From Candidatus Acididesulfobacter guangdongensis (GTDB lineage Bacteria; SZUA-79; Acidulodesulfobacterales; Acidulodesulfobacteraceae): a DNA stretch of 64,000 nt. The notes below the pieces were generated by a model. That model did not search any database. It was not told the DNA's origin and saw only the letters and a list, made by a program, of their open reading frames with translations. The stretch covers positions 216,631 to 280,630 of the forward strand of contig SGBC01000004.1 of the NCBI GenBank assembly GCA_004195045.1, written 5' to 3'. Below, piece by piece: positions 11,058 to 25,762 of the stretch; the first letter of the stretch is position 1, and each line of letters opens with the position of its first letter. The position numbers and the translations under genes are program-made.

Positions 11058-11520
11058 ATGCTAACAACATTAGAAATTAAAGAAATTACAAAAAATTTGA
11101 ATCAGGCGGGACAGCTATTGGTGTATTAGCCCCCAATTGACTGGAATAAAATGACACTATCTATAAAGGAGTCAATCGGAGGGTAAAAAATGGGATTAAA
11201 TTTAAGAAGAAAATTTTCGGACGACGATAAGATTAAAATATTGCAGAAATGTAGATTATAACTAAAAATTGTCTTAATTTACTTCAACAATATGGGGAGG
11301 ATTAGACCATTTTCATTGACTTAAAATTAACTATATTATATAAAAATAAAAAGAGGATTAGCCTGTAACAGTTACGACCTAAATCGGTGTCCAATGCGAC
11401 CGAAATACACGATATAACTTAAGATAGATTTTTTAAAATTGAACTTCCGCTAAAAGCATTGTAAATAATATCACAGGCAAATGCAGGCGGGAGCGAGAAA
11501 TAAATAAATCTAACACCTTT
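11058..11520 (+). other. Decayed accessory sequence with a transposase-like fragment
   Basis: Two short frames are visible: 11058-11129 (23 residues, starting MLTTLEIKEITKNL) and 11190-11261 (23 residues, MGLNLRRKFSDDDKIKILQK then CRL and stop). The second has a ribosome-binding site (GGAGGG) and resembles the first residues of IS3-type OrfA helix-turn-helix proteins, which often begin with a basic patch followed by F-S/T-x-E/D-x-K-x-K-I. It breaks off at once. The rest to 11520 has no coding signal. Confidence 0.35.
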
Positions 11521-11544
11521 TTCTTTAATCATTAGCCAATGTAT

Positions 11545-11964: not shown

Positions 11965-12377
11965 TATAATCGCTCCTTTTTATTATAACATTCAAATTGA
12001 TATTTTCAATATGGAAAATATAACTGTAAAAAATATAATATCATAACGATTGTTGAGATATTATGACGCAAATGTTGCAAACAAATTAAATTTCCGTTGC
12101 GTTGAGATTAAAAATATGTGCAAATGCAGATGGTATCAGAGAAAAAGGTATCAGACACCTTTTCCGGTTCACATTTATTAAAAAACTAAGTTTAATTTAA
12201 TTTTAAATTTGCGTTGAAAAATTGTCATTATAAAATAGTTAAATTTATTCATAATGTTCATCTCTATTTTAAAATAGCCGTAAAATAAAAATCGCTACCC
12301 AGCAGATTCAGGAAGAAGTGAGAGATAAAATAAATCGGATGGCTTTTATTGATGGCTTTTATTTATAATCTTTATGC
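11965..12377. other. Non-coding spacer between coiled-coil and LexA-like genes
   Basis: No gene is supported. It holds the solo palindrome at 12141, AT-rich stretches, and a short direct repeat GATGGCTTTTATT near 12337-12362. Confidence 0.4.
12141..12165. repeat. Solo GGTGTCAGACACC-type palindrome
   Basis: GAAAAAGGTATCAGACACCTTTTCC is a near-perfect palindrome made of the two ends of the 91-bp element found at 23710 and 25505, with its middle missing. Palindromes of this AAAAGGTGTCAGACACCTTTT form are common near REP-associated transposases in other bacteria (recalled pattern, not searched). No transposase is nearby. Confidence 0.6.
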
Positions 12378-23673: not shown

Positions 23674-23889
23674 AAACAGGCTGCATAGGTACGCCTATAT
23701 ATATGAAAAGGAAAAGGTGTCAGATTTTATTTTTTTGCATATGGAGTAGTTCAATTAACAAAGAAAATATTTGCAAAAAAATTAATCTGACACCTTTTCC
23801 GTATTAGACATATATAATGGATAAATATATGCATAGTATATACAGTATAGATAGAACTATATTATTTTTTTATTCACAGCAGCCTGTTT
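23674..23889 (-). terminator. Split inverted repeat at the end of the DUF302 gene
   Basis: AAACAGGCTGC at 23674-23684 pairs with GCAGCCTGTTT at 23879-23889, the latter only 9 bp past the DUF302 stop codon. On the minus strand the distal arm is followed by the T-rich GTTATTTT. The arms therefore look like a terminator stem, but 194 bp now separate them, including the 91-bp element at 23710-23800. Confidence 0.5.
23710..23800. mobile_element. 91-bp hairpin element, copy A
   Basis: The element begins GGAAAAGGTGTCAGATT and ends AATCTGACACCTTTTCC; inner parts of the arms also pair (TTTTTTTGCA with TGCAAAAAAA), giving an imperfect stem of about 29 bp. It is the reverse complement of copy B (25505-25595) with about three mismatches in 91 bp. 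It has no coding capacity, so it is a MITE- or REP-like unit that would need an outside transposase. Confidence 0.7.
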
Positions 23890-23897
23890 AGAAAATT

Positions 23898-24296
23898 TTA
23901 AATATCGGCAACTGCTTTTTCAATAATTTTTTTTATTTCTAAAGATTTTCTTTTCAAACTGCCATCTGTATCGGCGGCTAAACTTAGCAATGCGGCAGGG
24001 TTAACGGCATTGACTATAACATTGCCTTCTTTATCTTCATATATGCAGACATTGCAAGGAAGCAAAAGCCCTGTTTCATCGCTCATATCAAGTACATCCA
24101 TAGCTATTTTAGGATTGCACATTCCTAAAATAGTGTATTTCTTGAAGTCTGCATTTATTTTTTCTTTTAAAGTTTTCTTAATGTCTATCTCTGTTATAGC
24201 GCCGAAACTGTTTGCCTTAAATGCTTCTTTGACCTTTAAAATTGCGTTGTCGAAATCTAAATTAACCGTTTTTTTAATGCCGATACTTTCAGTCAT
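23898..24296 (-). CDS. DUF302 family protein
   Basis: The 132-residue protein matches DUF302: KVKEAFKANSFGAITEIDIKKTLKEK, then TILGMCNPKIAMDVL, then ETGLLLPCNVCIYED and VNAVNPAALLSLA. The family pattern G-x-C-N/H-P and L-P-C-N-V with two conserved Cys is present. The function is unknown, though members often occur with sulfur or heavy-metal genes. A GGAG ribosome-binding site lies 8 bp before the ATG. The gene is divergent from the diguanylate cyclase gene at 24653. Confidence 0.85.
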   Translation of the reverse strand: MTESIGIKKTVNLDFDNAILKVKEAFKANSFGAITEIDIKKTLKEKINADFKKYTILGMCNPKIAMDVLDMSDETGLLLPCNVCIYEDKEGNVIVNAVNPAALLSLAADTDGSLKRKSLEIKKIIEKAVADI

Positions 24297-24652
24297 GTCA
24301 AATTCTCCTTAAATTTAATAAATTATTTTTTGTTTGATTGTAGTATATTAATATATACAGATATATATATATTAACATCAATATTTTATTTTTTCAAGCA
24401 AATTAAAAGATAGTGTCTATTTCTGTCAAATTAACGATTATTTCGTTTAAATTAATTAAATAACAGGGTGTCTGTTCATAATTAAACCTCTAAAATTAAA
24501 ATTAAAATATTGCTATTTAATTGACAATATTAGTATTTAATGCTAAATTAATTTTAAAAATAACAGCATTAAATCAGTAAGACAATATTTATTATTTTTT
24601 TTGTTTATTATGGCTTTATCATTTTTTTTATTATTTATGGTTAAATATTATT
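24297..24652. other. Divergent spacer between DUF302 and diguanylate cyclase genes
   Basis: The AT-rich 356 bp contain ATATAT runs (24352-24374) and two diverged halves of a GTGTCT motif (TAGTGTCTATTTCTGTC near 24411 and GGGTGTCTGTTC near 24468). No gene is seen; promoters for both sides should lie here. Confidence 0.4.
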
Positions 24653-25462
24653 ATGGATAAAGAAAAAAAAATATTTTATATATTGACTTTATCAATTATA
24701 ATAGAGATTTGCTTAGTATTGGTTGTATTATTTATAAGTTCTAATTTTTTGATTTATAACGATTTTAGCGTATTAAGAGAAATTAATAAATCTATTTTTA
24801 TCGGTGCTAAGAATTTTATTTATATAAGTTTTATTTTAGAGTTCATCTTATTTATATCGGCAATAACCGTCGTCTGGATTATTACCAGGTATAAAAAAAT
24901 ATTTTTCGAAAAAAATTCCGAAGATATAGCTATGACCGACAGTTTGACCGGTTTATACAACAGGCGGTATTTCGACAGCTTTTACGAAAATATATTTGAT
25001 CAGGCTTCAAGATACAGTACGATATTTTCGTTAATAATGTGCGATATTGACCATTTTAAAAAAATTAATGATACTTATGGCCATGATAAGGGCGACGTAG
25101 TGTTAAAAGAAGTAGCAAAAATTTTAAAAAATAATATTCGCAAATCCGATATAGCCGCCAGGTACGGCGGCGAAGAGTTTATGATTGTTTTGCCTCAGAC
25201 CGAGTTATCTAACTGTTTAGACGTCGCAAGAAAAATCAAAACTTTAATTTCTAAAATTAATATAAAAGATACAGGAAAAATCACTATAAGTATGGGAGTA
25301 ATATCTTATTCAAAAGAATTTGAAGATAAAGCAAAAGATTTTTTAAAAAAAGTTGACGAACTTTTATATGATGCTAAAAACAGAGGCAGAAATAGAATAA
25401 TTTCCGTAGATGCAAACAATGAAAATATTGAAGTTTCTGAAAATCCATGGATTGACGATTAG
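24653..25462 (+). CDS. Membrane-anchored diguanylate cyclase
   Basis: The 269-residue protein has two membrane helices (about 7-32 and 57-80) enclosing a short periplasmic segment, then a GGDEF domain (about 95-255). The catalytic signature is RYGGEEF, preceded by the RKSD inhibitory site five residues upstream, and DIDHFKKINDTYGHDKGD carries metal and substrate residues. It should make c-di-GMP and be feedback-inhibited. The periplasmic part is too short for a known sensor domain. The gene ends 13 bp before an 18-bp inverted repeat that encloses element copy B. Confidence 0.9.
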   Translation: MDKEKKIFYILTLSIIIEICLVLVVLFISSNFLIYNDFSVLREINKSIFIGAKNFIYISFILEFILFISAITVVWIITRYKKIFFEKNSEDIAMTDSLTGLYNRRYFDSFYENIFDQASRYSTIFSLIMCDIDHFKKINDTYGHDKGDVVLKEVAKILKNNIRKSDIAARYGGEEFMIVLPQTELSNCLDVARKIKTLISKINIKDTGKITISMGVISYSKEFEDKAKDFLKKVDELLYDAKNRGRNRIISVDANNENIEVSENPWIDD

Positions 25463-25475
25463 TTTTTTAAATACC

Positions 25476-25652
25476 TTAATCCTGCAATAGAAAGTTATCT
25501 ACTCGGAAAAGGTGTCAGATTAATTTTTTTGCAAATATTTTCTTTGTTAATTAAACTATTTCATATGCAAAAAAATAAAATCTGACACCTTTTCCTTATA
25601 TTTTGCTTAACCGAGCAAAGAAATGCATAAATATTTTCTATTGCAGGATTAA
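25476..25652. other. Outer 18-bp inverted repeat enclosing element copy B
   Basis: TTAATCCTGCAATAGAAA at 25476-25493 and TTTCTATTGCAGGATTAA at 25635-25652 are perfect inverted repeats 141 bp apart. The 91-bp hairpin element lies between them. The position just after the cyclase stop codon suggests a former terminator or 3' hairpin, although no T tract follows. Confidence 0.6.
25505..25595. mobile_element. 91-bp hairpin element, copy B
   Basis: Same element as copy A in inverted orientation, with the ends GGAAAAGGTGTCAGATTAA and AAAATCTGACACCTTTTCC. Relative to the transcription of the gene whose 3' end it follows, it has the same orientation as copy A. No protein is encoded. Confidence 0.7.
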
Positions 25653-25762
25653 AGAAATATTCTTATATTGAAAAAAACAGTTGAATAAAGTAATATATAA
25701 TCTGAAATAACTATAAATAAACTAAATATAAAATAAACTATAAAATAAACGAGGATATAAAT

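Follow-up and report, generated by a model that had tools for sequence, protein, structure and literature searches.

The window analysed here is a 64,000-nucleotide stretch of contig SGBC01000004.1 of Candidatus Acididesulfobacter guangdongensis, whose genome spans 2.22 Mb on five contigs and is 99.19% complete. It holds two copies, each of 91 bp, of a hairpin element: copy A at 23710–23800 on the minus strand (orientation being the direction in which AGATTAATTTT...AAATAAAATCT reads 5' to 3') and copy B at 25505–25595 on the plus strand. The neighbouring genes encode a DUF302 protein and a GGDEF protein, in agreement with the first-pass annotation (DUF302 and diguanylate cyclase), and an MCP-type chemoreceptor gene lies upstream of copy A. 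With copy A read on the forward strand and copy B as its reverse complement, the two differ at exactly three positions. Each lies inside a bigger inverted repeat, namely AAACAGGCTGC (23674–23684) and GCAGCCTGTTT (23879–23889) around copy A, and an 18-bp repeat, TTAATCCTGCAATAGAAA (25476–25493) and TTTCTATTGCAGGATTAA (25635–25652), around copy B; all four arms are exact at these positions. The copies had been described as mutually inverted, differing by about three bases and nested in this manner, and direct comparison confirmed each part of that description. They had also been placed in 3' hairpins or terminators; terminator prediction called none at either copy.

Allowing three mismatches at most, the end motif GGAAAAGGTGTCAGA is present at 10 sites in the window, against 0.68 expected. 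One further feature, GAAAAAGGTATCAGACACCTTTTCC at 12141–12165, had been annotated as a solo palindrome made of two joined hairpin ends; it is indeed present, but it is an imperfect palindrome with two mismatches. There are 43 close relatives in the genome that match AAAGGTGTC[A/T]GACACCTTT with at most one mismatch. We found no paper describing the palindrome GGTGTCTGACACC.

The Inverted Repeat around Copy A

In three congeners (G003, G001 and G005) the intergenic region orthologous to that of copy A lacks the hairpin and retains the surrounding inverted repeat. The repeat of G003 reads GAACAGGCTGC...GCAGCCTGTTC, a compensatory change relative to AAACAGGCTGC...GCAGCCTGTTT here. The left arm of G001 is also GAACAGGCTGC, with a change on one side only (GAAC/GTTT), and the left arm of G005 is mutated. 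In G001 a different gene stands on the chemoreceptor side, so that orthology is clear for the DUF302 side alone, and the exact insertion point of copy A is blurred by the AT-rich loop. Since the three congeners keep the repeat without the hairpin, copy A lies in the loop of a pre-existing inverted repeat, and the orthologous sequences indicate that this outer repeat is host sequence older than the hairpin insertion. The segment 23674–23889 is in itself a long-range inverted repeat; it lies between the chemoreceptor and DUF302 genes, which converge, and three congeners have kept it, with a single compensatory change.

Copy B and the Miniature Transposon O

Copy B is part of a 181-bp composite (25474–25654, plus strand) in which the hairpin occupies the loop of a second, unrelated element, a miniature transposon (MITE) that we call O. 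The left arm of O, with the terminal inverted repeat CCTTAATCCTGCAATAGAAA, lies at 25474–25498 and the right arm, with the terminal inverted repeat TTTCTATTGCAGGATTAA followed by AG, at 25596–25654, both on the plus strand. AAATA stands on either side of the composite, at 25469–25473 and 25655–25659, and the orthologous site in G003 (TTTTTTAATATTCTTATATTG) is empty and reads straight through. By this comparison the composite inserted whole, with AAATA as its target-site duplication. The two outer repeats of the window are two different things, that of copy B belonging to O and that of copy A to the host. The first-pass suggestion that the element inserts into the loops of hairpins therefore stands for copy A, in its older host repeat, but not for copy B, whose outer repeat belongs to the mobile unit itself (a finding that the first-pass annotation had named as refuting), and not as a general rule. 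General insertion into existing hairpin loops was considered separately and rejected as a rule: at 46 independent O-free copies from relatives, mean flank complementarity was 18.4, near the background of 17.5.

Right arms of O occur in at least 40 places in the genome, and full-length relatives of the composite share 93–99% identity with it. Some O, about 80 bp long, carry no hairpin at all, CCTTAATCCTGCAATAGAAAGTTATC directly adjoining TTTTGCTTAACCGAGCAAAGAAATGCATAAATATTTTCTATTGCAGGATTAAGG (L117, L123, L113 and L121), so that empty, palindrome-carrying and hairpin-carrying forms exist side by side. Identical 5-bp flanks were found at 29 of 47 distinct pairs of O ends, compared with 2.2% of mismatched pairings. 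Short, non-coding, with terminal inverted repeats of 18–20 bp, a fixed 5-bp target duplication and an empty site, O has the properties of a MITE. The hairpin of copy A, which has no O arms, is 100% identical to those of the composites at C3:485439 and C1:620744; the hairpin without O has therefore either moved in recent times or arisen as a copy of one in a composite. No transposase was found between paired O ends in the fetched loci, and a 2.5-kb pair of O ends in G002 encloses host genes only.

Solo palindromes also occupy O loops in this genome, and in relatives the loops hold other hairpins, GGATTCCCGC...GCGGGAATCC. In L077, L079, L261, L383 and others these hairpins lie at the very position that our element occupies here, and the O loop thus seems to collect hairpin elements. 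In the loop of another O of this genome (L382, 170–397; C1:187669–187896) a further miniature element is nested, bounded by CCCAACTTCACCA/TGGTGAAGTTGGG and apparently by TTAA duplications; a related piece occurs at L025. Beyond the 5-bp duplication, direct repeats of about 23–45 bp flank some of the composites (L015 and L016), and at L019 a similar flanking repeat is already there in empty congeners.

Copy Number and Genomic Context

At least 40 copies of the hairpin were found in the genome, mostly at 95–100% identity and at lowest 93–94% over longer matches; the figure is a lower bound, as no more than 40 candidates were scored, and the analysis covered targeted stretches of the genome. The first-pass view of a dispersed mobile element is supported. 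The sequence AAAGGTGTCAGA occurs at 126 genome sites, compared with none for a reversed control, and the pattern greatly exceeds chance. An exact-arm pattern found 27 copies; a looser one, run over the fetched loci, gave 50 hairpin-like sites, of which 44 have a clear orientation. Both O arms accompany 16 of these 44, the right arm alone 13, the left arm alone nine and neither arm six, such that 38 have at least one arm. We read the one-armed copies, several of which break at the base of the hairpin, as decayed or rearranged composites; further rearrangements are possible, because local sequence has been replaced at L004 and L010.

By mechanically called ORFs, the 50 loci comprise 32 between tandem genes, 10 between divergent and seven between convergent genes, and one within a gene. 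The nearest gene end was 3' in 25 cases and 5' in 24. At the tandem sites the hairpin had the same orientation as the genes in nine cases and the opposite one in 18, with five undetermined. Neither the location at gene ends nor the fixed orientation relative to the gene, both proposed from the two window copies, is borne out by these counts. No match was found in IMG/VR that would indicate carriage by phages.

Structure and Insertion of the Hairpin Family

When 84,980 species genomes were scanned for the pattern, 74 stretches with the hairpin were found, all of them in MAGs and one in a gammaproteobacterial MAG (PRO16). The element forms a diverse family across about 11 related MAGs, in which copies without O are widespread, and it measures about 88–93 bp. 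Conserved are the terminal arms and, as an asymmetric bulge, GATT-AA-TTTT opposite AAAA-TAA-AATC, and the loop is variable; such an inverted pair of conserved ends around a variable loop is a feature of the REPIN/REP type as well. Pairs of the inner stem alternate among CC/GG, AC/GT and TT/AA. In an alignment of 36 sequences, 97.6% of cells were paired, and 43 cells were changed on both sides, compared with 12.9 in shuffles, of which not one in 500 reached the observed value. Pairing fell to 38–62% when the partner was slid, and the terminal arms also change together (e.g., GGTATC/GATACC). Only sub-threshold matches to Rfam were obtained.

At 62 independent copies in relatives, the base before the hairpin was C in 32 and A in 20, and the base after it was T in 45. 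The foot of the hairpin thus reads (C/A) followed by GGAAAAGG, with no conserved tag and no tetranucleotide of the GTAG or GGAG type. No general target-site duplication was seen, with 12 of 142 cases at or above the 95% point of the null. Four copies (L257, L159, L009 and L270) have long adjacent duplications of 16–48 bp. In L159 (1340–1620) the hairpin lies between direct duplications of about 40 bp (TTTAGCAATCAATTTCATAA...) that are single-copy in G001, and an empty O is close by. In another species pair, a hairpin without O (L251) corresponds to a clean empty site (L250), and about 10 and 7 extra bases came with the hairpin; such carry-over of a few bases is seen at some empty sites.

Relation to TIRYT Transposase Genes

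The first-pass annotation had noted that the ends resemble palindromes near REP-type transposases, and a link to the Y1 family does exist, in relatives. The GGTGTCAGATT ends of the hairpin match inverted repeats that surround IS200-like TIRYT genes, both among relatives and in a single gammaproteobacterial MAG. The relatives have Y1 transposases about 245 amino acids long; in genus g6 several TIRYT genes of this length are flanked by AATAAAGGTGTCAGATTTATT / AATAAAGGTGTCAGATTTATTTATT, inverted between the two sides wherever both were seen. In L152 three copies of the repeat lie upstream of the Y1 gene and three, inverted, downstream, and in PRO16 (L225) a 230-amino-acid Y1 transposase is bracketed by inverted AAAAGGTGTCAGATTTATTT, one per side, with a hairpin resembling ours 2.5 kb away. 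Four more distant genomes (L313, L316, L319 and L320) have GGGGTCAG repeats at a Y1 gene, inverted around it in at least three. GGGGTCAG fits the published TIRYT consensus GGGGWSAS (PMC3733652) exactly, whereas the hairpin motif GGTGTCAG has T at position 3. Beside the TIRYT genes the repeat reads GATTTATT and in the hairpin GATTAATT. TIRYT genes are also present in G002, G005 and G006, but their flanks lack GGTGTCAGA.

Intact copies of the longer transposase-flanking repeat, GGGAGTAAGNAAATAAATAAATCTGACACC, are dispersed in 26 of 30 family genomes, with a maximum of 63 in a single genome, and a reversed control gave none. This genome has one match and a degenerate copy at 11486–11523 of the window, on the minus strand in the reading of GGTGTCAGA. 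A search for a RAYT/IS200-type enzyme, which the first-pass annotation had proposed as a check, detected no TIRYT here: NF047646 had no match, and PF01797 matched an IS200/IS605 TnpA and a fragment only. Neither the TIRtron nor the REPIN/RAYT arrangement, in which the cognate transposase shares the genome with its repeats, is therefore seen in this genome. Its sole intact Y1 gene (L061) is the IS200/IS605 TnpA, which adjoins TnpB and has a small toxin-antitoxin-like gene pair upstream; the motif GGTGTC is absent from the fetched 3.4-kb locus.

Discussion

We suggest, with a probability of roughly 70%, that the locus records two nested non-autonomous mobile elements: a hairpin that is an inverted dimer of TIRYT end-repeats, and the MITE O that captured it. 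The hairpin, in our best reading analogous to a REPIN, forms one long DNA hairpin, to which the conserved internal bulge gives an orientation. A Y1 transposase probably recognises it as a single strand, moves it in trans and inserts it mostly between C or A and T, without a fixed target duplication. Because no TIRYT is detectable in this genome, we infer the mover from the relatives, and a TIRYT may once have been present in this lineage. O, with its terminal repeats of about 20 bp and its 5-bp target duplications, is probably mobilised by a putative cut-and-paste (DDE-type) transposase. A hairpin would have landed in the loop of an O, and the composite would then have spread as a single unit through the ends of O, as at copy B; the hairpin also occurs on its own, as at copy A inside its old host inverted repeat.

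Several other explanations deserve consideration. The hairpin could be an ordinary MITE of a DDE insertion sequence that shares GGTGTCAGA with TIRYT genes by coincidence or through landing near them. Its perfect inverted ends would suit such an origin, as would its amplification, alongside a true MITE, in a genome without TIRYT. However, it lacks the general target duplication that O displays at 5 bp, its junctions at (C/A) and T are non-random, its asymmetric bulge is conserved, and the motif brackets TIRYT genes, inverted, in the host family as well as in a gammaproteobacterial MAG unrelated to it. We therefore consider this origin unlikely. The 16–48 bp duplications at four copies count against simple Y1 insertion, which does not predict them, and it is conceivable, if rather doubtful, that the hairpin moved here by a non-TIRYT route that produces these duplications and carries a few flanking bases, which would make it a distinct class of mobile hairpin amplifying without a cognate transposase gene.

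The two remaining explanations concern function and the boundaries of the element. Selection at gene ends for a functional RNA or terminator, with mobility incidental, could account for a strongly covarying hairpin whose copies are almost all intergenic, yet the concerted changes of the arms are also expected from the copying of a mobile palindrome. Moreover, there is preference neither for gene ends nor for orientation, the two window copies and the Rfam search gave no called terminator and no match above threshold, and the empty orthologous sites for copies A and B and for L251/L250 argue against it, leaving this account improbable. It is more improbable still that the hairpin and its outer repeats are one element, of which arm-less pieces are merely degraded and the hairpin never moves alone. 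The O arms beside 38 of the 44 classified copies and the half copies that break at the hairpin base would fit; the empty 80-bp O with target duplications do not, and the idea is contradicted by the widespread hairpins without O in relatives and by copy A, which matches the hairpin of composites and lies in a repeat that three congeners keep without it.

Under the preferred reading of two nested elements, the arrangement would demonstrate that an element of the single-strand type can hitchhike on a cut-and-paste MITE. It would also provide a natural example of amplification in the absence, real or apparent, of the cognate enzyme.

Like the bacterial MITEs NEMIS, RUP and ERIC (PMC3733652), O is a short element without coding capacity that has terminal inverted repeats and a target duplication fixed at 5 bp; it differs from them in that its loop carries a second mobile hairpin and the two spread together as a composite. 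TIRYT enzymes share the HUH/Y1 catalytic family with IS200/IS605 elements, as well as subterminal hairpins and the lack of target duplication, although the IS200/IS605 element of this genome, with TnpA next to TnpB, has no GGTGTC in the 3.4 kb fetched. REPINs consist of two inverted end repeats and a variable loop that form one hairpin, are intergenic and are tied to a trans-acting Y1 transposase. The hairpin resembles this known class (PMC3116915) in its inverted ends, variable loop, single hairpin, intergenic location and Y1 link, and differs in lacking a GTAG-type tag, in having ends other than REPs and in that the genome yielded no cognate transposase. It departs from the TIRtrons in its motif GGTGTCAG, in a dimer that is a covarying bulged hairpin of 88–93 bp, and in having no detectable transposase in the genome, but it shares with the TIRYT repeats of Di Nocera et al. 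(2013; PMC3733652) the inverted repeats with a GGGGWSAS-type motif flanking Y1 genes, and the dispersal as single, dimeric and grouped repeats. A 2018 survey (PMC6006769) reported that it saw no REP-like sequences near two TnpA-Y1 subclasses, 2.1 and 2.3, and proposed the former as the TIRYT group. Should the transposases here belong to subclass 2.1, a putative assignment, the hairpin family would provide a concrete candidate substrate with a conserved structure.
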